64,000 bases of DNA from Lepidurus packardi. Taxonomy: Eukaryota; Arthropoda; Branchiopoda; Notostraca; Triopsidae. Every line of letters starts with the position of its first letter. Within the stretch, counting starts at the first letter, position 1. Shown here one piece after another: positions 27,141-51,106 of the stretch. The notes beneath the pieces are model-generated. The model was not told the DNA's origin and did not search any database. It saw only the letters and a program-made list of their open reading frames with translations. Location of the stretch: assembly GCA_023053545.1 (NCBI GenBank), contig JAKZAN010000006.1, positions 2,547,001 to 2,611,000 on the forward strand, given 5' to 3'. Made by a program: the position numbers and the translations under genes.

Positions 27141-29958
27141 TCACTCCAGGTTATACACAGGATTGGCGAGCGCCACTGCGGATTCAGAGGGAACCATACC
27201 TTCGACACCACTGTTTCGGTTTTGACCTGTAACTTGACCTTGCTCTTTATTGTAATCCCTAGCTTGCGCTGCCGATAACAATATATGTAAAGCGCCTTGC
27301 AGCCGTAGTAAGTGATCTGCATAATCCAGCTCTCTTGCAATACGCTCTTTCAGCTTAAGGAAAAGTTTGTCAACCTCAGCAGATAGAGTCGTACTCTCGT
27401 AGACATCTGAACGAAGAGAACATTTTCCAATGGTTAAGTAACGGTACAGGCTCTGAAATTTTAAGAAATAAATGTTGGGAAACGGGAAAGTCGTACCTAA
27501 TAATGTGTCTGTCACATCGGCCAGGATGGGAGTGAAGGCGGGTTCATCAATATAGCGGACTAGGAAATTAAGGATGGAAGCCAACGATTTCCCATCACGG
27601 CCCGCTACGGCTGCTCGTAGGGCACCTCGACTGAAGGAGAAATACACAGAACAGACGGGAATTCAGTAATAATGAATTGGGTGAGAAAAGCAGACAATGC
27701 GTGTGAATATACTTTTGAGACATCGCCCCTGCGAACCCACTGCTATGCAAAAGAGCAAAAAGGGGGGGGGAACTTGCATGTATAACGTGCAATTTGCATG
27801 CAGGACCCCAACGCTTTTGAAAACACAGTATTGCCCAAACAAGCATGGAACAATCTCTTGGTTTTACCGCCTTTGGGGAATTAGCCCTCTTATTAGACGT
27901 GCTGCTTTCTCTGGGGAAGACACATTAAACTCCGAGAGATGGGATGTCACCGGCATATTTTTTATGTTTCTTTCAAACTAAGAACACCCAAAACTGCTAC
28001 TGAATACGTTAATACCTTTCCGAATCTTTACCGAGAAAGAGAGTGAAGGAAACAGGACATACAAAAGTCGTTTCCAACAATCATTTCTTTAATGACTTGG
28101 TAAAAAGAGGGGGAAAAAAGAAAACGAGAGAATAAAGTGAGGACTTACCGAAGAAGTTCTTGCATGACGGCCACAGTGGTCCCTGGTTGCCTTTTGGTCA
28201 CGTAAGGGAGGAGCACAGCATCCAAAGCCTTGCTATGCTGAAATTGACGCAGAAGATGGTCGTGGCGAGACTTCTTTTCTTCTGCTTCCTGCTTAACTTG
28301 CACATCTCCCGGTGCAAGATGGTACCCTGCACGCACTTGCAATCTATACGAATAGCGCGGACGAGGAGCAGGAGCTGATGTCTCAGCATTTGAAACAGTA
28401 TCTGCTCTGTGCTGCATGGAAATGAGCCCATCCGACATCCCCACCACGAGCGTGTCATCTTCGGACTAATAAAAACAGCAATAAGAAACGCTGTTGCGCT
28501 ACAACTACACAGAAACTGCGAAAATAAACTGAAGAGGCGTCATAAATAATACTCAACTATATTGTAAAAATATCATGCCTTAGGATCGCGTGTCTTCGAC
28601 TACGCAGTCTGTTTTTCTAACAATAAAAGTCTACTGATTTGATAGTTTATAAGCGAAAACATCCACTGGCTGAAAATATCCAAGTAACGCTGCTCCACAA
28701 TACTTGACACATTCTTTATCTCCTGAGTTCTTAAGAACGGGACTGTAAATAGGAACTTACTGTTATTCCAAGGCTCAAAATAGGTGATGGGTATGTTAAT
28801 GAATGGACGACTTTATAAGATTGGACGTCGTAAATATTCACGTGACGATCTAAGCCACCGGTCAACAATCTTCGTCCACCACTAGCCAATCGGACAGATG
28901 TAATCGTTTTGTGATGCCTTGATATGCAGGCTAGGAGTTTACCACCAGATAAAGCGTCCCAGACCCTCATTTCCGTTCCACCTAAACGAATGCAAGAATG
29001 ATACCAAAATTGTGGATCGGAACAATAAAGTCCATTTCAAATGTGTTTTGTTACAACTAAATAGGAATTTTTACCAACTGAGATGAAAACGCCATCTCCT
29101 GGAAACATAAGGACATCTTCTACAGGCGCGCCATGGTCCATTTTAAAAGAAGGGCCATCGCTAAATGAGCGTGTATCAAACAAACGAACACAGTGATCGT
29201 ATGACCCCGATAGTATTAAGCTTGGGTTCGAGCTGGAAACAAAGCCAGCCCGTACATAATCCTGATGGCCACCGAAGACTTGTAGTTTCGTTTCGCTAGG
29301 AATGTCCCAATAGGCAACCGTTTTGTCGTCAGAGAAACTGGCCAAATGAGTATTATCAGCTAAAAACTTAGCCCTGTGGGCTGGTCTGCAAGAAAGATAA
29401 TCGTTTTATAGGGTACACCATTGCAAAAATTAGCTTACCTATCATGGCCTTTAAATATTCGCAACAAAGATTTTGTTGCTACATTATACAGCTTGACCTG
29501 CCCTTCTTCAGTTCCTGCACAAATCAACTTCCCATCGGATCTGAATGACCCACCGTAAGCAGCTTCCTTGAATCTTGTCAGACTCTTTTGAACAATATGT
29601 GTAATCGGGTTATAAATTTGGACCTGCAGAACGTGAAATATATTTAACCATTAATCTTACTTTTAGTTTAAGGTTTTCAAACTTACTCTTGAAGAACAAG
29701 ACACAGCAATGAAGTGAGGTTCCTTTGGCATAACATCTACATAGTCTATTGGACCGAACTCTTTTACTGTTGTTGGAAACTAGTCGGAAAGAAAAACAAG
29801 TTAAATTGTCGATTTGGCAAGAAACTTAACGAAGATCATAATAATAATAGACGTAAGTCAAAACGCACAGAAAACTTCCTCCAGTAAACATTGTCGGCTG
29901 TTGCTTTTTGGTTTAGTCGAGGCAACTTTTTTGTTTGTGTCTTCTTGAACGAAGCCAT
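27141..29958 (-). CDS. UTP15: U3 snoRNA-associated protein 15 (UTP15)
   Basis: UTP15 is a nucleolar WD40 protein of the t-UTP/UTPA part of the small-subunit processome, needed for pre-rRNA transcription and 18S processing. I assemble seven exons: 29958-29869, 29779-29687, 29623-29439, 29385-29075, 28981-28761, 28465-28149 and 27630-27141, giving about 568 residues; human UTP15, from family knowledge, is about 518. The N-terminus (DNVYWRKFS then PTTVKEFG) fits the family. WD40 blades follow, with typical ends such as VAYWDI, VRLFD, MRVWDA and VNIYD, and ILSGSYDHCV and RLLTGGLDRHV are diagnostic. The C-terminal UTP15 domain carries ALRAAVAGRDGKSLASILNF and later ERIARELDYADHLL. The start is the only ATG that fits the family N-terminus. 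The last exon holds a GT..AG segment of 44 nt whose removal would break the frame, so I keep it. The gene is divergent from dUTPase. Confidence 0.93.
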
Positions 29959-30108
29959 CTTTCAATTTCACTTGTAATTATAGTATGGTCTAAACACTTA
30001 TTTTACCAAGTGGATTTGCACAACGGATTAAAAGCCGACAAACACAGATCACTGAAAACACAACGTGGTCTATCATGCAGATACCGGGACAAACATGGAG
30101 GTGGCTGT

Positions 30109-30421
30109 GGGGTATAACGCGAAACGCGAAGTAAGACACGAAATGGGCTGCGAAACAGCTCTCTCATTGGTTGACTAATTATGATCGTCGTTTAACAAAA
30201 TACTATCAATGTTATTGGATTAGTTAAGATATATTACTTGCTTAATTAACATTAATTTTAAATTATATGTCCAAATTTTAGTTTGGTTACGATAGATTGA
30301 AGTTCTATTTCATACATTAGCATTTGATTGCCCAAGTTATAGTTTCGCATTTTACCAAGTTTCGCGGGATTTCAGTCACGAGGTTTAGCAGGAATTTCTT
30401 GGGTTATGACGTTTAGCGTTT
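30109..30421 (+). mobile_element. Non-autonomous element A, upstream of UTP15
   Basis: About 310 bp with no coding capacity. It begins GGGGTATAACGCGAAACGCG and ends near GGGTTATGACGTTTAGCG, so the ends resemble degenerate inverted repeats of a GGGTAAAACGCGAAA type. Two internal blocks are shared with element B at about 46971-47430 in the same orientation. The left block (30151-30175) contains CGAAACAGCTC and ATTGGTTGAC and matches at 23 of 25 positions. The right block (30337-30374) starts TTATAGTTTCG and matches at 32 of 38. The middle is AT-rich and not conserved. It lies 150-460 bp upstream of the UTP15 start. The transposon class and exact ends are uncertain. Confidence 0.55.
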
Positions 30422-30740
30422 ATTCCATACCTCCATGGAGGTCGGAAGGTTATTTGAACAAAAGAACCCGTCCCTAACCTAACCCACAGAACATGAATAC
30501 TGCTATAATAAAGACTTCCATGTAAGCAAAATATAACATAAATAAATTTGACCATTCTGTTACTCATGACTTTTCATTTCCGAAGCATAATCGAATACAC
30601 AGTATTATGCATTTGTGCCTCATGCGTATTCATTGCTCTTGTTTACATTCGTTGTATATAAGTATTACCTCATTGTATATACGTGTGGTATACTTGTTCG
30701 CTGTATATTTTTGTTCATTTCTTCATCAGATAAAAGAAGC

Positions 30741-31791
30741 ATGTCAGGTATGTATTACTCTGGCTAATTGGATATGAGTCTGGGGCTAATAGTCTGTTGA
30801 ATGTTTATACTTTTAAGCTTCTTTTTACATTCATTTCATCCACATTCAAATAAAACGCACTATATAAATTCATTATGGATGTCAAATTTCTTTCAAACTT
30901 CTTACGTTGAACAATTATTTAAATAAAACAAAGCCCACTTGGCGCCAAACGGACGCCGTCTGTGGTGCCAATTTTTCCCAGAGGTTTGAATAATTTGTGC
31001 TGCCACCTATGATTGACAAGGCTGTGTAGCATATACTGTATAGCACACCACATACTGTGTAGCACTGTGTTACCCATGCTTACCGTTGAGTTTCATTAAT
31101 CCAGTAAATATGAATCCAGTATTACGATTTGTGAAGTTAACTCAAAATGCGTACAACCCGTCGAAGGGTTCGACACATTCTGCCGGTTATGACCTACACA
31201 GGTAAAGTTGGAATTTTTGGTATGGTATAATGTTATATTTTTATTATTTTTATTTTGTCTCGACAGTGCTTACGACTACGAAATCCCACCACGAGGAAAA
31301 GTGGTTGCTTTAACGGACATTCAAATTCAGTTACCCAGTGGTTGTTATGGCCGAGTTGCTCCAAGGTCTGGTCTTGCTGCCAAGCATCATATTGACGTGG
31401 GAGGTAAAGTTCCCTTGTTTATATAATATAATTTAGTAACGGATTATCTTGTATTGTATATTTAGCTGGCGTCATCGACTTGGATTACCGAGGAAATGTT
31501 GGCGTTGTTCTGTTTAACTTAGGAGAAGAGCACTTTCAAGTTAAAAAAGGTGACCGCATTGCCCAGCTAATATGTGAGAAGATCTTATACCCTGAAATAG
31601 AAGAAGTTCAGGTAGTTCCATTAATACGTGATTACTTAAAGTTACATCTGAAGCCACTCAGAGTCTCTTAGCATATATTTCCTATGTTAATAAGCAGTTG
31701 TCGCATATATTAAATATCTAATTTGCAATTCCAGAAACTTGACGACACGGAGCGCGGTGCGGGTGGCTTTGGATCCACTGGCTCTTCCTAG
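30741..31791 (+). CDS. DUT: Deoxyuridine triphosphatase (dUTPase)
   Basis: dUTPase hydrolyses dUTP to dUMP and pyrophosphate, keeping uracil out of DNA and supplying dUMP for thymidylate synthesis. The coding exons 31110-31201, 31267-31403, 31466-31611 and 31735-31791 encode 143 residues, normal for the trimeric family. All five motifs are present: [18 protein letters not shown] (I), PRSGLA (II), [17 protein letters not shown] with the catalytic Asp and base-pocket residues (III), GDRIAQLI (IV) and the glycine-rich [10 protein letters not shown] (V). A 7-nt coding micro-exon at 30741-30747 (ATGTCAG before GTATGT) splices in frame to an acceptor at 31104, adding MSVN; I take this as the likelier start, with 31110 as the alternative. 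An E2F-type palindrome lies at 30939. The gene is divergent from UTP15. Confidence 0.94.
30939..30949 (+). promoter_or_regulatory. E2F-type site TTGGCGCCAAA by dUTPase
   Basis: TTGGCGCCAA is a perfect 10-bp palindrome matching the classic E2F/DP half-site in both directions. It lies 161 bp upstream of the 31110 ATG, within the putative first intron if the 30741 start is used. In other animals dUTPase is expressed at G1/S under E2F control, so the location fits; binding is inferred. Confidence 0.5.
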
Positions 31792-34700
31792 TATATGGTG
31801 AATATTTTCAATTGCTATGCCAATGTGCCCATCGACGCACCGTGTTCTTTATTTAACTTTTGTAAGCCAGTATCGAGAACTATTTTCAGTGCTCATTAGA
31901 ACTGAGGTGTTATGTGAAGGCATTCAGAATACTTGGAATAATCACGTTTTGAATATCAGTTGAAATCTGACTGTCTTTTGGTCCAATCCTTACTTCGTTC
32001 ATTCATTTAACAGTTCATGCGTTCTTTTCATTGTTTCTTGCAGTTGGGTCAGTTCTTTTGCAGCGGCGATTTACCACTTTCATTTAAACTAGTTAACTCT
32101 TGGGTTATGTAATAGGTTGGAATGTAGATTTTTGTCGAATTTTTTTTTCCACTTCCTAAAAAGTATTTTATGGGTGATTATTCAGACAAGCGGAGATCAA
32201 AACAGGCATGACACAGACTTAGATGTTGAGATTTATACCAGGCTGTGGAAATGACGTAGATAAATATGAAGTTTTAAAAAAATGTCTGGAAATTTTCTTT
32301 TATTTTGTATGCGATATTTCTTTATGGGAGTAAAACTGTTTCTCATTGCTACATGTGCTTGCAGTTTTGTGTTACTTCGCTGAATGGCTGATCTAAACTT
32401 GGAATGTAACTGCACCGAATTAGTGCACATGCCAATAGACACTGTAATTCACCGAAGTGTCACAACGATAAACTCAGCATGCGCATCGCTTCAAAACTTG
32501 TAACTTATAACTGCATGGGAAGCAAAACCTTTAATGCCTTTCCCAGGGAAAAGAGAGACGGTGTTTGCCATTTCAACGACCAATTTAGCCTAATAATTTT
32601 GATTTGCATGAAACCTTCCTTTTTTGTTTTTTATAATTGATGGCGTGAGCCTCCAACATGTTTTTTTTTATAAAGGTCATCGGTGGCGTACACATAAGTT
32701 ACTTTATGTGCTTATAGTTTAAAAAGTGCAATAAAAACGTTGATCTGCACTATTCCGCTGTGCTTGAACTATAATGTCCCTGTAATTACTTCGCTTTCCT
32801 AGTCAGCCTCTTCATTAACATTGCAAGTCTTCGCTGTCAGTTATACAAGGTTATACCTGTTTATCTAACTAAAAGTTCCAGATTCCTTGACCTGAAGCTA
32901 TTTTCGCGTGTCTTTTTTTCACCGGTGTCTTGTCGTGTTTAGGCTCTGTAAACTTTTGTTATTGATCTTACGTCTAGTGTATCTCTTTTCCTGGTATTAC
33001 TAATGTCTTTAAGCGTGCTCTGCGGACGAGAGATTGAGCTTGTTTTTGTTTTGGTAAAAAAAAAGCGAGTCGGTATTATGAGCTTCTTGCAGCTCTAGCC
33101 AGTCTCCATACCAAATTGGTTTGACTTGGTAGTTTTCAGAAGGGTCGTAATTCTTTTTATTTTCTCGATAACCGTCGTAAGTGTATGCTTTCGTTTTTAA
33201 AAGTAGAGGTATTTGGCAGCAATGCCAAGCACTTCATTTTGCTTCCCCACGGGGGGCCGGAAACTATTTTTGAAACACACAGAAAGAAAATAGTATGTCC
33301 ATAGTATTTTTGTAGAGTTCTTTCTGAAGTTAACCGTATCGACCGTAGAATAATGTCCACACTGCTGGGGATTTGCTGTGGAATAACATTTGGCTTTGTC
33401 ACTTCGTTATTAATCAAGTAGCGGGTATTCCTGCTTAGAATAGAATCTCTGTGGAATGAAATTAAGCACGCTAAATTAATCGCAGCAAGTGGCAAATGGT
33501 CGAGATGGCGAAGGAACTAATAGCAGTGACTTTTTGTTGAGAAAACCTCAGACTACCGCCACGTGGTGGCTTTGTGAAACGCTGAAATTACGTCACCGTT
33601 ATAATTACGATGTTATGATTCTGACTGGAGTTTTGTTTTGGGAGTAATGAACTATATTAAAGACACTTTTCAACTAATTATGAACCGGAATGGGAAGCTG
33701 GAACCCCTTTTCTGTCAGGGAGTAAAAACCAATATATGTCAATTCGCTTTTGTTGTTTTTTCTTATCGTTTTATCTAAGTAAAAAGTTTATGTGAGTTAT
33801 GGACCACACAAAAAAAATATAATTTGGTAGCCTGGTTGAAAGGATTCCAAAAATAGGCTAGTCGCAAGCCAAGATATGTACTTTTGTGACTTTTTCAGGT
33901 CAAGAGGTGTAGCTTATCTAAAGGCTGACGGAACGAATGATGTTTGGCGTAAATCCAACGCTATTGATGTAAACTAAAAGGTATCTAAGCGGTCTGCCCC
34001 CGTGTTATTGCAATAGGAGGGCCTACCATTATGTTATACCACTAATGAAGCTCGAGACAAGAGCACTCGGGAAATTTAGCGAGCTTTCCGAACGGGAATT
34101 AAAAAAAAATAACTAAAAAGTCAAGAAAGAAGTGTCTCTCTCCTACACGTGATAATGAGACGGGACGTCCTAGCGTTGAAAGTTTATATATCGTACTGTG
34201 CGACGTGAAAACAATTTACGTATCCAAACGTGCCAACTCCAAATCTGTGGTCCAGTATTAACAGGAAAACCGCATCTTTTCTCCGAAATGAAAGAGAACA
34301 AGGTTTAGAGCTCGGGTTTTTTTATTGCCTTAAGACATGAGAAGGCGAAATTTATTAGGGGTATGAAGTTTAACTGCAGATTCAATTGCGTGTTTCAAAG
34401 CCTTAGTTGACAGAAACTTTAGGCTTGGGAGTTTCCTTGTTAGTCTTCATTTTTGATAACTTAACTGTTAATGGTGGGGTACATAAATCTCTTGGACAAA
34501 TAAGACCCTGACCTCCATGATTAAATATTTTTATCCCCGAGATGCGCATGTCCTGAATGTGGAGTCAAAGTTGGTGGCTCCGTCACGGATCGTATAACGT
34601 TATAGCTGCGGCTCCGTAGCTTTTCTCGCGTTGTAGTCCCGAACTCCAAACGATGGTTACCGTAGCAGTTTCGTGGAAGATGGCTTCAGAGCTAGCACGT

Positions 34701-35670
34701 TTTGCCTGGCCGTGCCCGGAGAATTTCTTCTGTGAGTCTTATCAAGAGTGGTGCCGCAGTCACTAAATTACTTCGTAAATACTCTTGGCAACTTGTAATA
34801 CTTCTCGAGCGTTAACTCGAGTGGGTTTTGCGTCAAAGTTACAGGACAAACGAAGTTGTTTCGGGAACTTGAAGCAAACATTTCTTCAGGTCAAAAAAAA
34901 AAAACCAACAGAATACTGGTGCAAAACACACTGACCTTTTAAGATTTCGGAAACAAAGGCGTGAGTATAGTGAATATTTTATGATAATGCGATTTATCTG
35001 TGCGAGGTCAACAGAAGAAAATTTAGTGGAGCTTTTCTGCTTAAAATCTCGGTTTTCCAAAGTTGGTGTTATCAAAGATACACAGTAGCCGACCAGGCTT
35101 GGGTTGCCTTTAGGGGAAAAGCTGGTTAATTACAAGGGCAAAGGATGTAGCCGCTTTTGGCAAGTATTAGCGAGTCAAAATTCAATATTGTTCCTTGCTT
35201 AGCACCGATAGCCGGCGTATGTCGATAATTAAGTCTCAAAGTAACGAAATTGTCCGATTGCTGTCTTCGTACTCGCTGGCTGAGCCTCTTTAAGTTCCAG
35301 CATAATCTTTAGTCTGGTGAAGCCAGCCGTAACTGAATTCCTTGCATATTGTAAGGAAGTCGTACTGAATACATCGAGTTGCTTTTCATTTCTTGGAAAT
35401 ATCTTATATTCTCAGAAAAGAGAATAGAAAAGGAAGAAATTAGCTCCGCTACAAATATGCCTTGGAATTGACGTCACGTGTGTCTCATCTCTCATTCCCG
35501 TGTTAAATGCAAAATGCAGAAAAAAACAAAATAGCTTCCACGTTAAAACTCGCTCTAAATTTTTTTCACTAGGCGAAATACTCCCTTCCTGTAGATTAAT
35601 TCAAAAGCGGTAGTTGAGGTTTAGTTAAAATTGCATAGATATTAGGTCTGGTGCAACCTCAAGATTTTTT

Positions 35671-35705
35671 TCTTCTCTCTCTCTCTCTCCCTCTCTCTTC
35701 CTCTC
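35671..35705 (+). repeat. CT-rich microsatellite
   Basis: A pyrimidine run, mainly (TC)n with a few interruptions, of about 35 bases. It is simple-sequence DNA and could act as a GAGA-factor-type site on the other strand, but nothing else supports that. Confidence 0.7.
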
Positions 35706-37186
35706 ATCCGGAATGTAATATTTGTCTTGCTGTTTGCGACAAATCTACAGTTGAGCTAAACTAAAGAGCCACAGGGTACTAACTTTCGTGAATAAAGAAA
35801 CTGAAACTATTTCCTTATTTTTCAATACAAATTCTGGGAAGTAGATTCACTATGGCGTGCTTGTTCATCTTTGTTTTTAATTAACGATTGAAACGGTAAA
35901 AACGTACCTATCGGTCGCCCTTTTATTTTTTTTTATTTTCTTACGGTCTGTTGTCAAGCTCTTCGGTTGGGTTATCTCGGGTGGGCTTGTTGAGCATAAG
36001 TAATTCATATCTTAATTACTTATACATTATTTGTTGCTAGTGTTGGAGCTTCTCTGACGTTGCTGAGCTCGAGTATTTTTTTCCCTATCAATATGCCAGG
36101 CTTTTTGAAGGTCGCAAGGCCAGATGAAATGGGAAATTTCCTCATTTTCTTATGGATGGGCCCGCTGCTGATCAGACACGTTTGGGCAGAGGTAGGAATA
36201 TATGGCAATATAACTCTCGTTGGGTGCTCATACGAAGCTTGAGTGGCGGAGGCAGACGGAACATGTATTGTTAGAGATTCTTGGCTTTCTAGAATTTTCT
36301 TTGAAAATGTCTGACTTTGGGCTGCCCAATTTTCGTGGGAGATTATATCATGTGAAAGTAATGCATAGCCGCCATAATTTTTTTTCGTTTTTTCAGAAGA
36401 CCTTTGTGTAACCTGAGTGTTGGCTACGATACGACAAGCTTTTTTACTCCCGCTTTTCAAGTTGATACGGATGACGCTTTGAATAACCTATAGAAAAAAA
36501 TGCCAGAAAGCGCCACGAAGAGGGTTTCAAGTCTATAGCAGCTTTAAAAAGTGGCTTACGCAAAGTTTGGAGAGAAATATGAATGACAAATTAGAGCTTA
36601 GAAAGACGATAGCAGTGTTCTTACCAATAAGAATGCACGCGTGATGTAATGCGTTGCTTACACGTTAGTTTCTGTGTATAAAGTATTTCGTATTTTTCAC
36701 AGTCTATGCAGCTTAAACACGGTCGATTCGTCTGCCAAATATATTATTTCACTAGCATCGCGTTGCCTGAAAGCCACCACGGAGTAATATTACATATTTT
36801 GGAGAAAAGACGGAAAACAGCAAGGAAATAATTTGTTTCCACCAATTAGGTGTAGGGTCACCGGAGACGGTGGAGAATGTTGAGCTTCTTTAGTAGGGTA
36901 ATCCCTGTCAAAACGATGGTTTTATAAGAAGATCGGTAAGATTACGGGATCGGTACCGAATAGTTATGGATATTTTCTCTCTAATAATTCTGCGGCTCAG
37001 CAATAACCGGAAGGTTTAGTGTGACTTGCTTTTTTAAACCCACGTATCGTCGTTATGAGTATTGCACAGCTTTACACAGAATTTACCATGTTTGATATAG
37101 GCAAAGGTCAAAGGGCTTGTTTGGCGGTCGTGCTTTCGGCTCATCTTTCCGACAAAGATAAGCGTTCAGGGTCCTATGTGTGCGAA

Positions 37187-37207
37187 CATGGAAGTGACAC
37201 TTCCATG
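37187..37207. repeat. Perfect 21-bp palindrome with ETS-like cores
   Basis: CATGGAAGTG and CACTTCCATG flank a single central A, forming perfect 10-base arms. Each arm carries a GGAAGT ETS-like core. It is isolated in a gene-free stretch. Confidence 0.5.
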
Positions 37208-39638
37208 CTTCGCCGAGAGGATTCCATACCCTTTAATTTCCTTGAGCTCAAAATCTTAGCCTTTTGGTTGTGGTTTCGTTTCGAGCTACATATATATTTG
37301 ACGTTAGTATAAAATATCCTCTCCCACTTGCATAACTCCTCAGCTTGGTGAAGATTTCAAATAAATGGCGCTGTTGATCTGGTCTCCTCCTCCTCCGCGT
37401 CCATGTCAATACGTCACAGTCTGATTTGCCCCGTCTTTCATTGTTGATAACATAAAAAGCTTGAGGTCTTGAGATTACGTTATTCGACCAAACGTGAGTG
37501 GGTTGGGGAACTTAAGTGAATTGTTGTGCTTCATTAATCAAAAAGGAAGACTGTATACCGACTTCATACGTTAAGACACTGGCCAGTAAGTGCACTGGCA
37601 CCTAGCTTTCCCGTCTAATTTATCGACTTCATAAGGAAAAGTCGGCCTTTGGAGATGGAGATGGAGGAGAGGGCGAGTAAGTAATACATAAGTAGGTAGT
37701 TTTTCACTTGATAGTCCTTCATTATCAGTGGATGAGATTCTTTCCATGAAAATTCTCGAATGTATTGTGATATTGCCAGGTCCGTAAAGCTGATCTTCAG
37801 AACCTCATTGAGATTAGTTATTGTTTTGGAGACCTGAAGAAAGTTATTTGAGGTAGGATTAGTAAAAGCTGCCAGAACAAAATTCTCGATGTGAGAGGTA
37901 TTGTCAGAGCTCGTTGCAGACAGCGTTTCATAGTTATTCTCTCTGCATCAACCCGAAGCCCTCCATTTCTCAGATGACAAGCTACAAACAGACACACGAA
38001 ACAACTTCCTTCTAAGCACGTTAGGCGATCAGCGGCAGGGCGAAATCTGCTTCGTGTTCTGCTTTGTAGCTGGAATTCCTTTGAAGGAATCATTATTAGG
38101 TTCGTTTCTTCTAGCTGAAGTCTACTGGAAGATATTGGAATCTTAAAATTAGGTACTGGGAGGCCTGGAAAACTATCGACTTGATTATTTCGGAAATATC
38201 GCAGGGATTTACGTTTCCCTGGTGAATTACTACCGAAGACTATAGAATAGAAATTGGCTTGTGACTTCACGGCCTCTTCGAATATAAAACCTCATTGAGA
38301 ATCCCCACTATAGTCATAGCTTTCGATAATCTTGTGGACCCAGGTGTTGTAATCAATATTTAATAGTTCATGATAGGTCAACTAGCCAAACAAGTTATTC
38401 TTCCGTAGGTCTTCCGTGGCATAGGCGGAAGGCCTGTAATCCGTGTAACTTGTAAAGGGTCTAATTGGGTTCGTTGCGTTGCGATGGTTGTATAGTATAA
38501 TGCCCGTACTGCCAATCTTTAATTATTTTTCCAGTACTTGACCCGGAATCCAATTAATTTAGGAGACTGCTGGAAAACTCATTCCTTAACATAATGTTGT
38601 TTATAAAGGAAAAACAAGCTCTACCAATCCTCGTAATGATATTTCTGTGCACACATGTTTAACTATGGTATTTAATCTTTATTTCTCTAAGATAGTTGTT
38701 CCAACTGTGCCTGTGATGGGGGTGAAAAATTCACTTCCTTTATGTAAGTTTTATGACCTGGACGACTCTTTGCGTTTCCCTTTTCTTACTGTGTGTACTC
38801 TGTCCATCGATTTTCTGCAACAATAAGCCATAGCAATTTCTCGACTCTTTTTCTGCGCACTGCAGTGCAGGAGAAAATTTCTTCTATTTGCCTGCGTTCC
38901 AAAACTTATGAATTGGAGCCAAGGAAAAACATTTTCAGTCTATAGCTTGTTAGATGTGATGCGAAGTATAAACGAGTCGATTGCGTCTGCAGGAAAGGCA
39001 TGTCGACTGTAACTTACATTTTTATTTGACGTATCGTACGTAACATACATGCCGAATTCATTTAAAGATCCAGATACGGAGGATTTAGACGTAGAAGTTC
39101 TCTTCAATACCTTTATACACTTCGTAATAAATAGTCTATCAAACGGGAAAGGCGAAGAAAATATTGCGTTTACAAGAATTATTGAATCCCTTCCCCCTCA
39201 GTATTAGCTGTGGTAAAATAAGCATGAACATTTCTATTTGCTCGTGGCTAAAAGGGCTGCACTGTGTATCTTGCTCCTTTAATCTATCATATTGAGTTGA
39301 TCGTACTTTTTTTAGACCTGGAAAACTCCCTACTGACAAGCTGTTTAATATACGAAGCAGGAAAAGGATATTTTTTTTTTCGTTTCCGTTCACAAGTCAA
39401 ACACGTATTTATAGTTCTCACGCGGTTTACTTTTATATGTTAAAAGGTCTGACAAAGAGAAGATCTGGTGGAAAACAAATGTTACACAGTAGATCCGGCG
39501 AAAGGTCAAACTCACAAAATTGTATTGCATTTCTTTTAGAGCATTAAACACAATCCTCGTAACATGCAGAATGGTCTTTTCACTACACGTGTCATTTGGT
39601 AATTACGTTATATACATATAGTTATATCCTGACAACTG

Positions 39639-39847
<209 letters not shown>

Positions 39848-41108
39848 CTTGGGCGGTACACCACCAGAGTTGGCCTTTTCTTATTGTGTTGCCTTTGTGT
39901 AGCTGTGTAATTGCAAGAAGTATAGCAAGAAGGGTTGGCTTTCTATTGCCAATTTTGGCTTTGTAAAGAATAAGTGCACTTTATCTTAATGTTACATAAA
40001 TCTCTGCCTCAGAGTAAAAACGGTAGTTGTCTTGACAACTTGGAGAGGATCAATTGTGAATAAGGTGACTATGGTTCTCCTTACACAGCAATAAGGGCAA
40101 CTGCAGCACCGACAGTTAGCTTCTATTTTTCGAAAAGCGACAGCAGAGCGGTAACTATCTCTATTAACTTAGGTTTTCTTTTAAATCTCTAGTGACCAAT
40201 TTGTTGCAGCACGTGCCGGGTCACATGCAAGCCACATTTATCTTGGTCACGTAATCTTATATTCGTAAGCTTTAATTGCACCGTTTTTTTATAACTTCCA
40301 CGGAAAGACGCACACACCCAAAGCTGCGTGAGGCTAACTTTCGGAACATACAAACATCCCTTGCTTACTTATTCTCCTGACACGGCTGCAGGATAGATTC
40401 GGTATGGTCGCTAATTTAAAAAAGGTGAGGAGCTGCAAGGCCAGCGGGATTGTAGCTTGTGAGCGGTTGTGCGCTCAAGGAGAACCACCTCAGGATTAAA
40501 GGGTTTAGACAATATACAAGGCTGCTTTGCTTGACAGTCACAACAACGCTGTGTTAAATCACGGTAAAGGATTGTTTACGATAGTTAATGATGGCGAAGA
40601 AAGTAGTGATTATTTTAGGTTAACACACAGCGCTCGAAATTTGTTCTATATTGTATCCTTTCTATTTTGTAGACTGTTACATCTGCTCTAGTCATTATGC
40701 TTTCGACAAGCCCATTTTATTGATTTTCAAGTGTTCAATTGGCTCTGTCAATAGGCTGGCTGGTAGCATCAGCGTGTATTCCCATCGGCAGTCCGCAAAA
40801 GCGATTTATCAAGAATTGCGACGGGTAAAGACAGCATCTGTCATCAACGTCGTTGCAGACACAAAAGGAAAGGAGCGTTCAAACACGCAAGTTGGTCGGT
40901 CGTGTCGTGACAATTGTTCCATTGAAAGGATCTGATTGTCTCGCCTCGCCCCCAAGAAAAGGTGCCAATTTTGGGGAAAATAAGTAAGTTGACCTTTTCG
41001 TCGTTCCCATATATGTATATATAGGTATAAAAAGGAAATTACGTTTGCTTAATGTGCATTTGTTCCGGTCTTTTAGGGATTGGAAACCCTTCTAGCTGTT
41101 CCTCGGAG

Positions 41109-43856
41109 ATGGAGAATTTAACAGATTACGAGTATTTTACGGGCACTACAATAGACCCTCGAGAGTTGGTTACGGGATTGCTGCTAAACATCTCTGCTGA
41201 GAATGCTGTTAAAGGGTCGTCTCTGAACCCTCGTATAGGTCCAGATCCTGCTTTCGCATTGTTTCGCGACGAATCCCGTTTCTGGGTGCAAAAAGTCCTT
41301 CTCATTATTGTCGGCGTGGTTGGCCTTTTTGGAAATGCAGCCACCATAGTTGTCCTCACCAGACGCGTTATGAGAAGTTCCACCAACGCTTATTTGACAG
41401 CTCTAGCCACCTCGGATTTTTTGTATTTGGTCTGTATGCTCTGGCTCTCTGTCATGCACTATTCCTCAGTGCACGAGCCCAACTTTTCCTTCTACTGGTA
41501 CGTCTGGCCTTACGCCGTATGGCTCACGGATGCTTCCAGTGAGTTCGATGTCATTTCACTTCCATTCATGACTTTTTAGATGCCTCAATGCATTTTCTCC
41601 TAACTCGAAGGTTTTCACGCTGATTAGGGTCACTTATGTCAGTGGCATGATCTTCAAACGGCAAGAGAAGAAGCTCGACCACGCCCGGTCGCTTTTTTTT
41701 CAGCTCTCAGGAATTCTCAGCTCGCTTCACCCAGTGTTGCATAAATCATCTTTAGTGAGTGACTAATTTATAAACAGTCATCAACTGTGAGTTAGATTGA
41801 GATTCAAAATCTGAAACTTAAAGAAATGGGCGAGATTTTAAGCCGAAAGTAAAACGGAAGGTTGTCTTTTCTATATCCTCCTAGGAGAAAAGCCAGGAAT
41901 GTACGTCGCGAATTCCACTACAGTATTACGCTCTCGAAACTCCGTGTATACTAGTTAATACTAGCAAATTGAGAAATCAAAGCTCTTAGCCATTATCCAA
42001 CTTATGACGATTCGCAGATGATCTATTTAATCTTTCAATATAAACTATCGACACTCAATTAAACGTTATAAGTAATAAATTGGGGAGCTTGGTATATAAT
42101 GGAGATATAATCGAATTTTATTTCCATGATAAAGATTTACCCAACACTAGAAAAAAACATTAAAACCGCGTGTTGCATGAGTCAGATCATAAAGAAGATA
42201 AAAGTCGTAACAGTGTTATGTTCTTTGAGCCATTTTTTGTTTGTCAAAGCGGGCAATTGCACTTTTTCGTCTTTTTGCCGCAGAGCTTTTTTCGCATCGA
42301 CTTCGCGTGGTCTGCAAGAATTAACCCCAGCGCAACGCCGCGCCGCTTGTCAATGACAGGGGATGTAAGAGCTGTAGCATGACTTTAATGACAGCTTTTA
42401 GAGTTTTTTCTTATTTTTTTCCCGTCTCGACTAAAATAGGACAATCTTTCAAAATCCAGAACAATGTAGGGAGCAGGCTAGGAAATTGCTTGAGTATGTG
42501 TTAGCTATTAGCGCTTGCAGCTTAGCAAAAATGTTGAACAACGTTATTAAACTTTTTTCTCTCTTGTCTGGTTTTTCTTTGTTTCTATGTGGGACCTTGG
42601 TAAAAACAGGCAATACTTCAGTGTGGTTGATTCTTTCCTTTACTGTCGAGCGCTACATTGCTGTCTGTCACCCAATGCGAAGAAGCTCAATGTGCACGGA
42701 ATCCAGGGCGCGTCGAGTCATTATGATCGTCTACGCTTGTTGCTTCTGTGCAACGCTCACGACACCGTTCGAGTGGTCCATTGAGGAGAAATTCGACCCC
42801 ACCATTAATGGCACCCGGTTACGCATAGCGTTCAGCGAATTGGGCGAGAATGAGACTTACAAATCCATTTACTACTGGTTCACTTCCATGACCTTTATGC
42901 TCTTACCGTTGACGCTCCTGATTTTTTTCAATTCGTTTCTAATCATGTCCGTGAAACGCAGCCGGTCTCTGCGGACAAAAATGACCCAAAACGTAGAAGG
43001 CGCCGATGGAAGCTCCCACCAGGAAGTCAAGATTACTATTACGCTAATTGCTGTGGTAATGATGTTCTTACTCTGTCAATTACCCACCGCATTCACGCTG
43101 ATCTACACGTCCTTTTACCAACCCGAGTATCACTCCAATGAAGAAGCCCTGCTCAGGGGACTCGGCAACATCTTCAACTTACTTGTGTGCATCAATGCGG
43201 CTTGTAACTTCATCCTCTATTGTGCACTCAGCGACAAGTACCGCCGTACCTTTGGCCAAACCTTTTTACCTTGCTTTTTCAAGGCTCAGTCTCCGATCCA
43301 CTCCATGTTCTACAGTCATACTTCACCTCCGGACGATCGCATGGCGAGCGGATACCGACGCTCTGCCTCTGTCCGAAATTCCATGGGACAATCTACCGTC
43401 ATCAGTCCCTCGGCCTCTGGACTTCATCGACAAAATACCCTCTACCTGGCCATCCCTACACATGAAAATAAGCAGCGAAATCTTTCAACAAATGACACCC
43501 GGACCAAGACTCAGCCAAACCGAGGTTTCTCCCCGACAGCTGCGTCTCGTTCCCGGAGTTCAAGTCTCACCAGTGAACCGAAATACAATTACATTGACAA
43601 CAAACAGATCCAGTCAACGAACGAGTCCAAAACGACGACTGCGTTGCTCCCCGAGGACCAGCATTCGACGGATGTTGCTGCGAAAAAGCAAAGTTTACTG
43701 TGTGTCAACTGGGGTAGTGGCAAAGAGCTTCATTTGAATGGTTTACGAAGAAACCCACGACCCACACAGCCGAATATACAGATTACCATTTCCAATGATG
43801 AGACGTGCATGCTAAATGCTAGCGACGGCGGAGGAAGTGGTACGACGAGCTTATGA
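41109..43856 (+). CDS. Orphan neuropeptide-type class A GPCR
   Basis: A rhodopsin-family receptor at the plasma membrane, most like arthropod FMRFamide/AH9.1-type peptide receptors. Two exons, 41109-41538 and 42610-43856, joined in phase 1, give 558 residues. The ectodomain of about 60 residues has N-glycosylation sites (NLT, NIS). TM1 carries GLFGNAATIVVL, TM2 LATSDFLYL, and TM3 ends in ERYIAVCHP (an ERY variant of DRY). TM5 has MLLPLTLLIFFNSFLI, TM6 MFLLCQLPTAFTL, and TM7 NAACNFILYCALSDKYRRTF. I see no cysteine at the top of TM3 or in the second extracellular loop, so the usual disulfide may be absent. The Ser/Thr-rich C-tail of roughly 200 residues suits phosphorylation and arrestin binding. 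The ligand is unknown. It is convergent with RIOK3. Confidence 0.86.
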
Positions 43857-44338
43857 TAACCTTGTTATGCTCAACGTTTGCTAAATTTGTCTTTTGTTCC
43901 CAATATGCCCCCAAGTAATCAATGCGGATAGGGCGATGGCATGTTAATCTCTCTACATATTAACCCTTCCCTAAACCCTCCCTAATTGGCACAAGGTTGA
44001 ATATAGCATCTTGTATTCGTATACGTTACGTGTGCTGACACGAACACACACACAGCGCGAGCACATTGCTTAGCGGTCTTCAACCTTCCTCCAAACCCAC
44101 CACGTACCAAATGTTGCGAAGAAAAGTACACATATTTTCAAGCCAATCTCTGACACAGTTGCCCCCAAACACTCAGCAATATTAACAAAAAGTAAGTGTT
44201 TCTGACTCGTAATACAGAGTCCGAAAGCAAAAAAAAGTCATTTGTTGTATGGCTACAAATGATCTGTAGCACCATATAACTAAGCACTTTTTTTACAGCG
44301 ACCTATCATCATAGAAACTGCTACAATCCTGCACTCCT
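43857..44338. other. Spacer between convergent GPCR and RIOK3
   Basis: This 482-bp spacer holds the 3' UTRs of two convergent genes. No open frame, repeat or structured RNA is evident. Confidence 0.6.
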
Positions 44339-46742
44339 CTACGTATGCTGACGAGGGGATTGAATGGACTTCTTTCCTGCCGAGCTTTTGTTCCGACTGC
44401 CGTCTTTATCTAACTGGCTTTGGGCCCAGCAAAAATCAAAAGGATAGGTCTTTTCCGATGCAGCAAAGGTCAGCACTTCTTCGCTGCTCTCGAAATTCTG
44501 GATCTAAGACGATAAATACAAGATAAAAAAGTAAGTTCTGGCACTCTAAGACAACCACTCCGGAGTTAAGGAAAAATAATACCTCGGACAAAATATCAGC
44601 ATCGGTGCCATGCAACTCCAACCCCGAAACGCTTGTAAATAGCTGCTTTGCTGTGGGTACCTTTTTGATTCCTTTCTTGTCGAAAAACTAGCCAGAGAAA
44701 AATTCGTAATTAGCGGACCTGACTTTAGGACTGACTGAGGTTTACATTAGTGATGTTCTGACAGTCTCGATATAAAAATTCAAGTGCATGTGGGTGGGAT
44801 GGTTCCACCGATTGGCTGACGTCAATAAACCAGCATTTGTCCTCGTGCCACAGGATGTTATACTCGGATAAATCCGCGTGCACCAAGTGGCAATCTTTAT
44901 AAAGCCGATGCATCATCTAAGAGAAGAAAATCATTTTTTTCCCATACGCTCGGCTTCAAAGTCCCAACCTCCTTGGTTTCCCGGAAAGCTTCTTGCCACT
45001 GAGCATCTGAAAGCGTAACATTTTTCAACTGAGGAGCTGCTTTTCCACTCTGACCCAAGAAGGACATGACCAGGACATGTTTCTTGAGTTGAACAACTTC
45101 GGGTACGTTTATTCCTAAGGAGTCCAAGAAAATTGTTTAAGACGACGAGTGATGATTAAAGACCACAATGGGCAGCAGAAGGTAAGGTGGAAAAATAACT
45201 TAACTAACCGGATTGTCTCATTCGCATAAGGTTATGCATTTCCTTCTCGGCCCACATATGGACAATTTTTCGTGGATTCTATGAACCGTACAGTTTCCCG
45301 AAGAGCAAAGAGAAGGGGGAACAAATTACAAAACATGATTTCCAAGTCAATGTTACCTAATCAAATTTACCTGTTTCGAGAACCTGTCACGGAAACGGTA
45401 ATCGTCCTTTATATATTTGTCCCTCGTCTTGAACTTATTCAACGTAGTTTTGAATACTTTGACGGCGCACTCCTTGGGAACAACTCCTCCTTCAATACTG
45501 CAATAGGTGAATGATAGTTATTTTTTTTTTTTAACCAAGAGAGAGGGAGTGAAAAATTCTTACACTCCGCCTTCAGCATGTAATATAATTGCTTCTTTCC
45601 CGCTGCTAATTGTGCCATTGATGCGTTCCAGCATCTGATTATCGACCATTTTGTGAAGCATTAGACGTGTCTTTTGATCCAGAGCCATGACCGAGGTGGA
45701 TTTTTCCTCTTTGTCATGCAAACGAGCCAATCGACGTCGTTCGCTCATCGAGTAGACCTTCAAATTGTTGTACACCTACCCATTGACAAGCACAGAAAAT
45801 GGACAATGAAAAGTTTGCGTAAGCTAATTAAAGTAAGGATGTTAACGCGGTTCCAAGAACGAGATAACACACTTTGTTAGACAGTTGCATGTCAAAGCCT
45901 CCTCCGTCTCCTGTTTCTATTCCTGGCGGAAATTCCATAACTTTGCAAGCATTCTTCCTCCCAGTAATCACGCTATCATGCTTGGTTATAATCGCGTCTC
46001 CTTGTTTTTTATAGCCACACTTGGGCAAGACTGGTGCCTCCTTTTCGGTTTCCTACATCCCACAAAGTTAGGAAATGGGCAAAAAGACAAACGGCTTAAG
46101 ATAACAGCTTTGTAGACGGTAAAAGTACTTCGAATGCATCCCAGCTCTTATTTTTGTCATCTTCATAAAGTGCTGCATCTTCCTCGGAATCGCTCCCATA
46201 AACATTACCTTCCGGAATCATGCGATAGTTGGAGTAGGATACAGAAACTAATTACATATCACAGAAATATAAAGAAACAGATTAAAGTAACAGTGATTTC
46301 ATGATCCTAAGCTTACCCTTAGAGTGACCATTGTACTTCGCTTCCACTTTGTCAAGATCACGATCGTATTCACGATCAAACTGCATCTGTAGCATTTGAG
46401 CGATTACTGCATCACTGGTAACATCCAGTTGATCCTCGAAGTCAAGGAAATCATGAACCAGGTCTACTTCAGGAACACTGGCTTCTTCACGAAGAAAACC
46501 AGTCATCTCCTCCCTAGAAACAAAATAAGAAATTGGTTTAATTATTCTAATAAAAATTTAAGCATTGTGTGTAAAGCAATACCGCAATCTTTATCTTGAA
46601 AAAAAAAGACAACACTTTACCTTGACTGAAGATCTTGAGCTAGATCTTCCGACATTAAATCGGCAAAGGACGTTGGCTGCTCCACTACGGAATTTGTTTT
46701 CATCCCCCAAGGATTCGCTTTTACTTCTCCGGATGTGGACAT
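44339..46742 (-). CDS. RIOK3: RIO kinase 3 (RIOK3)
   Basis: RIOK3 is an atypical RIO-family kinase of late pre-40S ribosomes, also reported in innate immune signalling. Eleven coding exons (46742-46621, 46513-46317, 46247-46129, 46052-45873, 45775-45564, 45497-45371, 45278-45209, 45114-44969, 44916-44746, 44687-44583, 44503-44339) give 537 residues. The RIOK3-specific N-terminus is clear: [29 protein letters not shown] and TKHDSV followed by GRKNACKV. The kinase has a RIO P-loop (GTISSGKEA, about 260-268), K290 in CAVKVFK, D406 in [10 protein letters not shown] and the metal-binding D423 in [14 protein letters not shown]. An upstream exon (46907-46833) is open and in frame, splicing at 46769, so a start at 46907 with 34 extra residues is possible. 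The gene is divergent from FTSJ3. Confidence 0.96.
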
Positions 46743-46832
46743 GATTATGGTCGTTAAAGCTTTAAAATCCTGAAAATTGCCACACATAAGAAAAATAAAC
46801 GACAACGATAAGTCAACTTAGCGATTACACAC

Positions 46833-46907
46833 CTGGAAGTAAAGTGACAAGAAGCAGGCAGATTTTCTAGGTTCCTGAATGTATTGACGAAATCTAGATT
46901 GCACCAT
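46833..46907 (-). CDS. RIOK3: Possible alternative first exon of RIOK3
   Basis: An ATG at 46907 opens 25 codons (MVQSRFRQYIQEPRKSACFL, then SLYFQ) ending CAG at a GTGTGT donor. The acceptor at 46770 (TTTTCAG) continues in frame for DFKALTTII and into the MSTSGEV start. It is either a 5' UTR exon open by chance or a real N-terminal extension. The extension has four Arg, one Lys and only one acidic residue, with hydroxylated residues, loosely like a mitochondrial targeting sequence. Confidence 0.4.
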
Positions 46908-46970
46908 GAACAACGTTTGCCAGAAATCGAACCATAACAAAACTTGCAATAGATTTAGGTGTAGCTAACA

Positions 46971-47430
46971 TGTGAAATGAGAAGTGTGAAATGGTCAAAG
47001 GCCAAACGGACCACGAAACAGCTCCCTTATTGGTTGACCGTTGGACTCATTTCGCGTTTCACTGACAGCAAAAATTCAGTCTTTTAACTCAATTTGAAGA
47101 TGCCAGATACAAAAACAATGCTATTTTATCTCTAAGTGTATTTATATAAATATTTTATTACTTTAAAATACTTAAATATAGTAAGCTAAATTTTGAATTG
47201 TATGTATCCTATATTCGACTAGGTTAGGTAAGGTTCGGGTAGGTTGGGGCAGGTTAAGTCAGGTTTGGTTAGATTCTTTTTTCCTATTTCTTGTGCTTTT
47301 CAATTACTATTTTTATAATGTTGCATAGAATTTCTCTCAAATTATAGTTTCGTATGTTATCACGTTTCGCTGGAATTCACTTAGCGGTGTCGCAGGATCT
47401 TTTCGCGTTTTACCATTTCGCGTTTTACCC
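46971..47430 (+). mobile_element. Non-autonomous element B, between RIOK3 and FTSJ3
   Basis: About 460 bp without coding capacity. It shares two end blocks with element A: 47014-47038 (CGAAACAGCTC then ATTGGTTGAC after four bases) and 47342-47379 (starting TTATAGTTTCG). The right end repeats TTTCGCGTTTTACC twice (about 47400-47430), the reverse complement of the start type seen in element A. The middle is AT-rich and contains a degenerate AGGTT/TTAGG-like run at about 47219-47272. Boundaries are approximate; no target-site duplication was confirmed. Confidence 0.55.
47219..47272 (+). repeat. Degenerate TTAGG/AGGTT-like run
   Basis: Successive units such as AGGTTAGGTAAGGTT, GGGTAGGTTGGGGCAGGTT and AAGTCAGGTTTGGTTAG resemble decayed arthropod telomere repeat. 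It lies inside element B and may be part of that element rather than an interstitial telomere. Confidence 0.45.
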
Positions 47431-47544
47431 ACACCCAAATAGATACTGAATGGCAATGGGCTAATATGTAACGAATCCCGTTGTCTTGCAGTCTGCCTCT
47501 CAGTAGTTAGTGTGCTGTCCATTGCAGCCGGGGTTTTTGCGTCG

Positions 47545-47594: not shown

Positions 47595-50500
47595 ATGGGA
47601 AAGAAAGGAAAGGCGCGTCAGGATAAGTTTTACCATCTGGCCAAAGAAACAGGTACGTTTTCCCCAAATGTTAAAATGCTACGCATCGTTAATGCGACAC
47701 GTACAGTTACGGTATACAATACAAAAGCATGGGGTTGTTATGTTGTTTATACATTCATTTATTCCTCTCAGGTTACAGGTCAAGAGCTTCCTTCAAGTTG
47801 CTTCAGTTAAACAGGCGGTATGAGTTTCTTCAAAAAGGTCGAGTCTTGATTGACTTATGCGCTGCACCAGGATCATGGATGCAAGTAGCAAGACAGCACA
47901 TGCCAGTATCAAGCCTAATTGTGGGCATTGATCTGTTTCCAATCAAACCCATACCTGGCTGCATAGCGTTACAAGAAGACATTACTACAGATCAGTGTCG
48001 CCAAGCCTTAAAACGCGAATTGAAAACATGGAAGGCTGACATCGTTCTTCATGACGGTGCTCCTAATGTGGGTCAGAATTGGATTCACGATGCATTTATG
48101 CAATCCCAACTAGTACTTTCAGCCTTGAAACTAGCGACCGAATTTTTGGCCCCCAATGGCTGGTTTATCACCAAGATTTTCCGGTCCAAAGACTACCAGC
48201 CTTTATTGTGGGTACTACAGCAGCTTTTTAACAAGGTAGAATTGACTTTTGTTGACGCTTGTTATGTAAACTTAAGTATAAATTAATATTTAGATTCATT
48301 CCACCAAACCTCAAGCATCTCGTCTTGAGTCTGCCGAGATTTTCGTTGTTTGTCAAGGATATAAAGCTCCAGACAAGCTAGATTCAAAGTTTTTGGACCC
48401 GAAATATGTCTTTAAGGTATATAAAACCATGAACAAAATTTAAATTTGGCAATACTGACAGTTTTTAAATAGGAAATTGAAGCCAGTATTTCCAAGTCCC
48501 TTGCACTTCAGACAAACTTGACCAAGAAGAAAGCAGAAGGGTATGAAGATGGCATCAACAGTTTGCACAAATCAGTATCCGTGAAAGATTTTTTCTTCGA
48601 GGAAGACAGATTCTTAGAATTACTGAGCTCCGCCACAGAGGTATATTTAGCTCGTGAAAAGATGCATCACTCATACAAATTACGTTTTACAGTTGATCCT
48701 GGATGATGATAGGATTCTCAAGCATCGTCTTACCACTGCGGAAATTGCCGAGTGCTGTAAAGATGTAAAGGTTTTGGGGAGAAAAGAGCTCAAGTCCCTG
48801 CTCAATTGGAGGAAAGCCATTAAAGCAGAATTTGACAAGGAGAAGGAAGAAACAAAGGAGCCCAAAGCAACTGAAGAATCTGTAGTGCAGGAATCAGAGG
48901 ATGAGGACGACAAAGAACTTGATGCGATTGACAGACAAGTTGAAGAACTACAGGTAATGTTTTTGCATCACTTAAAACTATTGCTAATTTATTGGAACTT
49001 GTATCAAGGCGGACCATCAACAAGAGTTAAAACGAAAGAAGAAGAAAGTTCTGAAAGAAAGACGGAAGCTTCAAGCAAAAATGGCCTTAAAAATGCTGAT
49101 TGCAGGAGATTCAGGACCGTCTCTGCAGGATGGACCCATGTTTAATCTCAATCAGATAAAAACAGCAGAAGTAATTGGTATCAACTTAGATTTGCGGCCG
49201 TTTTCATACATTATTCATCACCGTCTAGGACCTAGCTACGGTAGCAGGAGACGGTTTGGATTTGTTTTTGCCTTCCGATGAAGAAGATGAAGAGAAAGAA
49301 CCATTGCCGAAATATGCCAAATACGACAAAGGAGAAAACCATCTTGACAAGTCGGGACGCTTTTACCGCAATGAAGAAGATTCCGATGAAAGTGATGCCC
49401 CTCGAGATGATGAGTACGAGTCAGATGTCCCTCAAGATCAATTAGGTTAATATAGACATTGAGAGGTAAACTTCAACTTCTACGTATTCAAAAATTTTCT
49501 ACTAGGCTTGGCTAGCGAAAGTGATAGAGAAGACACCGACTCGGACGATGACGTGGCTGACAGTCCCTCGAAAGCCAAAAGATCCGTTCGTTTTGCCGAC
49601 GAAGAAACTGTTGTAGTGCAGAGCAAGAAAAGCAACAAAAAAGACAACTCGACAGAAGATGACACAGAAGTTTTGAATCCGTTGATAACTGACTTACAAG
49701 GTGGGGATGCGGAACAACGAAGAAGGCGCAGAGCACAGTTATGGTTTGATAAAGTAAGATAAATGGTTACAGTTGCAAAAACTGTTCGTTTAGCATAGCG
49801 ATTTTTTCTGTTGTGACTTTGATGGTGGTAGCTTTTGCCTGGCTTCCTTCTGTGCGGTCATGCATCGAGGCTTTCAGACTGTTTTCCTCTTCCTGGTAAA
49901 GTCTTATCTCGCTATTGATTATTTTTTTTTACGGTAGGATGTTTTCGAGAACTTGGAAAATGAGGAAGATGAAGATGCGGAGCTGGATCTAGTGTTGAAA
50001 CAGCAACGTCAAGCAACATTTAAACTTGCCGCTTCTCTTTCAAAATTTGAAAAACCACAAGTCAAAAGTCGTAAAGTAGCTGATAAAGTTGTGAACGGAA
50101 AACAAAGCGAGGTTTCCAAGTCAGATGACAATGAGAAAATCGACGACGATTCCAGTTCAGATGAGGACTCAGACAGCGATAGTGACTCCGGGTTGGAGAA
50201 AGACTTACCAAACAAGACGGACGGAGACACGTTTGAAGTCGTCCCCCAACAGCCAGCAGGTATGCGTTTGAGTTAGAAATTACATGCATTGCCGCTCGAG
50301 AAAAAGAAATATTTATTTGGCTTGTTTAATTGGTTTTCTAGGAAAAGGTCGGAAGAAATCGCTACCACCTGAGGCTTTGGCCCTGGGCCAGAAGTTAATT
50401 AAATCCAAGAAAGCACGCCGAGACATTCTGGATGACGGCTGGAATCGCTATGCCTTTGGAGACGAGAACTTGCCAGAATGGTTTGTTGAAGATGAACGCA

Positions 50501-51106
50501 GGCACAACCAGAAAGATCTACCAGTTACTCGGGTACCTTTTTTTGCCAGTCTCCCTTTGAAGTTCTAAATTCTATCCATGTTCTTTCTTCTTGTTCTGCT
50601 CCCGGATTTTTTCACTACTAAATGTGTTACCTTTTCTTCTAGGCGGAAATAGACGCGTATAGACAGCGTCAGAAAGATATAAATGTGCGCCCCATCAAGA
50701 AAGTGGTAGAAGCTAAAGCCCGCAAGAAGCGCCGCGTTTTGAGAACAATGGAAAAGGCCAAGAAAAAAGTTCAGAATATTGCAGAAACCATGGGCAATAC
50801 AGACTACGATAAGGCTCAACAAATTCGACAGTAATCATCTCGTTTACTTATAGCGACAAGGAGTATATATTGACGGCTTCACTTGTGTCCTGTTTCAGAA
50901 TTTATCGAAAAGCTGCAACCGCCGCCAACAAAAAGCCAGAAACGAAATACGTTGTAGCGAAGAAAGGCTCAGTAACTGGCAAAAGAGCTCGTAGGCCGGC
51001 TGGAGTGGAAGGGCGTTATAAGCTCGTAGATCTTCGTATGAAAAAGGATAACAAAACAGCTAAAAAGGCGCAAAGACGAGGAAAGCACGGGAAAAAGAAG
51101 CGTTGA
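47595..51106 (+). CDS. FTSJ3: Pre-rRNA 2'-O-methyltransferase FTSJ3/Spb1
   Basis: FTSJ3 (yeast Spb1) is a nucleolar SAM-dependent 2'-O-ribose methyltransferase acting on pre-60S particles. Twelve exons (47595-47652, 47772-48235, 48294-48416, 48473-48640, 48693-48953, 49009-49177, 49248-49445, 49506-49753, 49938-50259, 50342-50532, 50643-50830, 50899-51106) give about 865 residues; family members are near 840-850. The FtsJ domain (about 20-200) holds the SAM loop DLCAAPGSW (47-55) and a K-D-K-E tetrad: K28, D114 in DGAPNVG, K154 in FITK, E189 in SAEIF. A long Glu/Asp/Ser-rich middle follows, then the Spb1 C-terminal domain ([64 protein letters not shown]). The start gives the conserved [18 protein letters not shown]. 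The acceptor of exon 7 is ambiguous by three bases. Confidence 0.96.

Follow-up and report, generated by a model that had tools for sequence, protein, structure and literature searches.

Passages of one published article (PMC7337890) report that old Pack-MULEs in maize and rice peak just upstream of transcription starts and that de novo insertions of Mu and P target the 5' ends of genes, a location that Drosophila P elements share with the family described below. Similarly, part of the text of a second article (PMC12595863, citing Henaff 2014) credits MITEs with having spread E2F motifs in Brassicaceae, although most of those sites, as that text gives them, lie far from genes, whereas the copies of the present family adjoin genes and carry putative E2F-like sites.

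In this article, I discuss two related sequences, elements A and B, that lie in a 64-kb window of Lepidurus packardi DNA (the window being the whole stretch analysed, in whose numbering A, B and their genes are given) and that lead from there to a family spread through the genome. I consider it probable that A and B are independent insertions of an old, non-autonomous, MITE-like family with terminal inverted repeats (TIRs) and a target-site duplication of about 8-10 bp, which either inserts into promoter regions or survives there. Like MITEs, the family is short, has TIRs and a flanking duplication, and is dispersed and found near genes; unlike MITEs, its ends run inward as GTAAAACGCGAAA-like repeats plus an AGGTT-rich stretch, and it is old and strongly diverged. 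It also resembles Mutator/MULE transposons, in a duplication near 9 bp and in the presence of MULE transposases in this genome, but no MULE gene with the family's ends was found among 63 matches.

Elements A and B and their neighbours

Element A (30103-30433, plus strand) is an internally deleted copy of a TIR element, 331 bp long and lying upstream of UTP15 at a distance of 144 bp from the ATG, and element B (46957-47437, plus strand) is a near-complete copy of 481 bp; the outer limits of both were set by eye against the family ends and replace those first proposed for them (30109-30421 and about 46971-47430). When the window was searched by nhmmer with a profile drawn from 13 copies elsewhere in this genome, A and B being left out, B was matched from 46958 to 47435 (E 1.2e-83); A came out as two pieces, 30216-30431 (E 1.8e-17) and 30112-30176 (E 3.9e-12), the remaining match in the 64 kb being to the terminal repeat of B alone (E 4.3e-5). 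Run against ten Markov shuffles of the window and against its reversed sequence, the same profile found nothing below E 1, and the likeness of A to B is therefore not a product of chance.

Queried with the A region, BLASTN finds two stretches of B in the window at E below 0.1 and, apart from A itself, nothing else at that level; the longer has 89 columns (74%, E 3e-9), the shorter 25 columns (92%, E 2e-4). The two ungapped blocks reported in the first-pass annotation are real: the left one, which contains ATTGG (read as CCAAT on the minus strand), pairs 30151-30175 of A with 47014-47038 of B, both on the plus strand, at 23 of 25 positions, and the second, identical by eye at 32 of 38, is contained in the 89-column match. 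The accompanying description of the centres as unrelated has to be given up, as alignment and profile alike show homology. B aligns to the family model from end to end; A corresponds from 30216 onward to model positions 295-489 and lacks about positions 84-294 (some 200 middle bases), with 39 bases between its two pieces unaligned. Since B is full-length on the model and A is missing only the middle, the two centres are homologous. The right TIR of B (47416-47436, minus strand) reads GGGTGTGGGTAAAACGCGAAA on the minus strand, with one mismatch to the family end pattern, and no open reading frame (ORF) of 90 aa or more lies inside A or B. Within B, positions 47215-47271 are AGGTT-rich and hold TTAGG-like, telomere-like repeats; this is family sequence and is found in other copies too.

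Three ribosome-assembly genes flank the two elements. UTP15 (27144-29958, minus strand, coding limits approximate) has its ATG at 29958, a UTP15_C domain in two exons and a PDB match to UTP15, and RIOK3 (44339-46742, minus strand, the 3' limit being approximate and drawn by eye from ORFs) has its ATG at 46742, a RIO domain and a PDB match to RIO3. Both had been recognised earlier as lying downstream of the elements, and this stands, but B is also upstream of a gene then omitted, FTSJ3/SPB1 (47595-51106, plus strand, 3' limit approximate), which has its ATG at 47595 and FtsJ, Spb1_C and DUF3381 domains. RIOK3 and FTSJ3 are arranged head to head, an interval of 852 bp separating the two ATGs; B fills 481 bp of this interval (56%), and FTSJ3/SPB1 begins 157 bp past the far end of B. 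Measured to the minus-strand ATG, ATTGG lies 208 bp upstream in A and 287 bp upstream in B, rather than the 107-270 bp first given. The company of three ribosome-assembly genes is striking locally and did not recur at any other copy examined. Between the two elements, at about 39622-39850, there is a long TA microsatellite that appears as Tyr-Ile repeats in several frames.

Flanking duplications

Element A is bordered by an exact 9-bp direct repeat, CATGGAGGT, at its left (30094-30102) and right (30434-30442) edges, and B by a possible decayed duplication, AATAGAT, a 7-bp match between 46948-46954 and 47438-47444 (all plus strand). Scored as edge repeats, these amount to 9/9 for A and 7/8 for B, with 7/8 and 8/10 at two further copies (L028 and L050, respectively). 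Among the ten copies with hand-set ends, five show little edge repeat and only A has an unbroken one of 9 bp; none of 20,000 permuted left-right edge pairings of these ten scored as well as the true ones. A coarser test on 25 copies, in which a shared stretch of at least 7 occurred in 3 of 25 true pairs versus 46 of 600 mismatched pairs (one 10 long), is uninformative, so that the support for a target-site duplication comes from A and from the hand-set ends. Taken together, the flanking repeats, the inverted ends and the dispersal described below identify the family as a DNA transposon with terminal inverted repeats.

An old and dispersed family

The genome searched comprised 108.6 Mb in 344 contigs, and the queries were A, B, the left block and one further copy, L013. 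At up to three mismatches, the left-block pattern has 15 matches in the genome (A and B included) and the right-block pattern seven, the reversed pattern giving none in either case, and the recruited copies, 15 of which were aligned, align mutually beyond the blocks. Complete copies measure about 455-490 bp, and two others are longer through insertions. The inverted ends of the family are GGGTGTGGATAAAACGCGAAA, continued inward by repeats of the GTAAAACGCGAAA-like unit, and three copies (L013, L004 and L059) carry both ends with two mismatches each. Searched for by itself at up to three mismatches, GGGTGTGGATAAAACGCGAAA has 67 matches in the genome, falling into 63 groups, versus two for the reversed control, and about two of the end matches among those counted may be chance.

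In the loci examined there are at least 53 profile clusters, outside which lie 34 further end-only groups, and after removal of six doubtful or duplicate clusters at least 81 places (about 80) are counted, the true number probably being higher, as each search scored its best candidates alone. The longer pairwise matches between copies run at about 65-80%, and the family is old and strongly diverged. The second of the two earlier suggestions, that A and B are a common MITE found twice, is right as to the nature of the element, given the TIRs, the exact flanking repeat at A and the dispersal of diverged copies over about 80 places.

Four of the six clusters dropped from the 53 (L016, L017 and L018, on contig C5 at 11.25, 11.34 and 12.33 Mb, and L020, on C16 at 48 kb) belong to repeat copies about 98-99% alike that contain 37-38 nt of the left block with a CGGTGTGTATAAAACGCG end, and here a piece of the left block has apparently been captured by a younger, unclassified repeat. 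The other two are a cluster on C39, at position 2559, that is a near-duplicate of the one at C2:7225458, and a weak second match beside C4:1605320. A second near-duplicate pair, L026 and L029, is identical over 540 bp at loci on C32 and C2, and such stretches point to haplotypes that the assembly left unmerged or to recent duplication.

Position relative to genes

To call coding flanks, a small codon model rather than annotation was used; it was trained on the exons of the window (2851 codons) and applied to flanks of about 1.5 kb; the best segment per flank was taken, a segment being away when the element lies 5' of it, and 47 copies were covered, or 45 without A and B. At a score of at least 6, the flanks of these 45 copies give 46 segments away and 11 toward (p 1.7e-6 against an expectation of 0.5 and 0.0074 against a conservative 0.65), becoming 44 and 11 without two transposon ORFs and 44 and 8 with flanks of 1300 bp. 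Positions taken every 100 bp along the window give 246 away and 230 toward, a null that, besides symmetry, consists of overlapping positions in one 64-kb window with A and B inside, and that is weak as a genome-wide control. Six end-only loci outside the main count add eight away and one toward at a score of at least 5. Counted by copy, and again at score 5, all 47 divide into 20 with genes pointing away on both sides, 15 with genes pointing away on one side only, seven mixed, four toward only and one with none; with A and B set aside, the away-only copies number 33 and the toward-only copies four (p 5e-7 against 0.5). Copies of the family often lie in the gaps between divergent genes. The direction of this 5' bias is well supported, and its size is approximate.

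A Pfam scan of the 60 flanking ORFs, all with a score of at least 6, names 26 host neighbours away and six toward without A and B (p 0.0003 against 0.5 and 0.036 against 0.65), the other ORFs being three at A and B, two from transposons (right of L034 and left of L005), two below the cut-off and left uncounted (UFC1 at L074 and CG-1 at L038) and 21 without a family. EIF3I, at L033, was counted though under the 200-bit cut-off (126 bits, E 1.7e-36, one exon). The neighbours pointing away are an ALG9-like protein, FERM, HBS1, an iron-hydrogenase-like protein, PP2C, a FAM69-type kinase, mL44, a NIF phosphatase, an MFS transporter, ankyrin, DUF1731, MBD, ARF, DUS3L, UBA, porin, two RRM proteins, an M14 peptidase, WDR35/TULP4, EIF3I, phosphomevalonate kinase, an E1 dehydrogenase, hyccin, a nucleoside transporter and an RL10P insertion domain, read as RPLP0; those pointing toward are CSE1, fibrillar collagen, a hydrolase, NHL, BBS5 and TsaD. 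As a set they have the look of housekeeping genes of a general kind. The 26 include translation genes (RPLP0, mL44, EIF3I, HBS1 and DUS3L), from which no enrichment for translation is claimed; among the 32 Pfam-named neighbours outside A and B no ribosome-assembly factor was recognised, with 21 of the 60 scanned ORFs familyless and no formal background.

The pair seen by eye is then a sample of a genome-wide pattern, in which the recognisable copies of a worn-out transposon mark the 5' ends of genes and the promoters that divergent genes share. If insertion preference is the true cause, this would be another case of targeting of the Mu or P kind; if retention is, a transposon would have supplied a promoter part.

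Insertion preference or selection

The transposase of another element would have moved the family by cut and paste, and the copies would either have preferred the open chromatin of promoters or have survived only there. Preferential insertion into promoters combined with loss of copies elsewhere would be the simplest account, as in Mu and P, and the CCAAT and TTTCGCG motifs would then be family sequence carried along rather than a control module for ribosome assembly.

Selection offers the best surviving alternative, though an unlikely one: copies in promoters would have been kept because CCAAT and the repeated TTTCGCG serve as a candidate promoter part for housekeeping genes, UTP15, RIOK3 and FTSJ3 included. 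The strong 5' bias of the family agrees with this, as does the share of the divergent RIOK3-FTSJ3 gap that B occupies (56%), and TTTCGCG, which belongs to the terminal repeats and which I take to resemble an E2F half-site, reaches 5.09 per kb across 47 copies versus 0.20 in their flanks, a 25-fold difference. The spread of E2F sites by plant MITEs, as described in part of PMC12595863, lends a precedent. However, the full E2F-like 8-mer is uncommon (0.52 per kb in copies versus 0.20 in flanks), ATTGG is about as dense in copies as in flanks (2.42 and 2.11 per kb), and the CCAAT block is intact in only two of seven aligned copies that were recruited outside the block (L025 and L028, as against L002, L004, L022, L024 and L030). 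Copies beside genes pointing away show no clear advantage in preservation over the others (36 and 9 copies, median profile scores per base of 0.52 and 0.44, p 0.70), and insertion preference alone accounts for the place of the copies. Nor is orientation constrained, since 25 left and 24 right ends (A and B included) face the genes that point away. The common orientation of A and B relative to their genes, to which the first-pass annotation drew attention, is therefore correct as an observation and uninformative as a clue.

It is slightly less likely again that the old family was recruited genome-wide into the promoters of divergent housekeeping genes, with the TTTCGCG arrays and CCAAT forming a symmetrical, orientation-free candidate part shared by translation and growth genes. 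As for the shared promoter module proposed in the first-pass annotation, the bias toward 5' ends (46 to 11) upholds one half of the idea, while the lack of an orientation preference, and of any other recognised ribosome-assembly gene among the Pfam-named neighbours, speaks against the other half; co-option as such a module is unlikely and unsupported.

An ordinary MITE without promoter preference, with A and B beside genes by chance, would also be dispersed and diverged and have inverted ends, but I find this quite improbable given 46 flanking segments away versus 11 toward without A and B, and 8 versus 1 at the six other loci. Hundreds of copies with no bias towards promoters had been named as the mark of such an element, and the bias is there. 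That A and B arose from duplication of a single promoter or of a local segment, as their spacing of 17 kb and like orientation might suggest and as absence of other copies and of TIRs was to have indicated, can be dismissed, since other copies occupy about 80 places genome-wide, the ends are inverted, A has an exact flanking repeat, and about 0.4 close pairs are expected by chance from 53 places in 108.6 Mb (a hand estimate).

Superfamily and autonomous partner

An autonomous partner would carry GGGTGTGGATAAAACGCG on either side of a transposase gene. No two of the 67 end matches form an inverted pair 1-30 kb apart. MULE transposases have 63 matches in the genome, one of which is less than 12 kb from an end match, at 8.9 kb; hAT transposases are common (the best 150 of 306 candidates were scored), and of the 117 checked among the 150 listed, one lies near an end match, at 6.1 kb. 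No autonomous partner with these ends was found among the MULE and hAT matches listed, and the partner may be diverged or extinct.

The duplication is 9 bp at A and 8-10 bp elsewhere, where it is weaker. Mutator/MULE elements make a duplication of 8-11 bp, usually 9; hAT elements have ends that start with CAG and make an 8-bp duplication, and here CA precedes GGG in three of 43 printed ends. P elements also make an 8-bp duplication, and their end sequence presumably differs from that of the family. Because the duplication is 8-10 bp, Mutator would be my first guess, with hAT and P as alternatives. The TIR and duplication lengths given for arthropod MULEs in the available part of PMC13359780 do not settle the superfamily.

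One copy, L034, has a DDE_Tnp_4 transposase ORF beside it (L034:2114-3040), which I take to be Harbinger-type.
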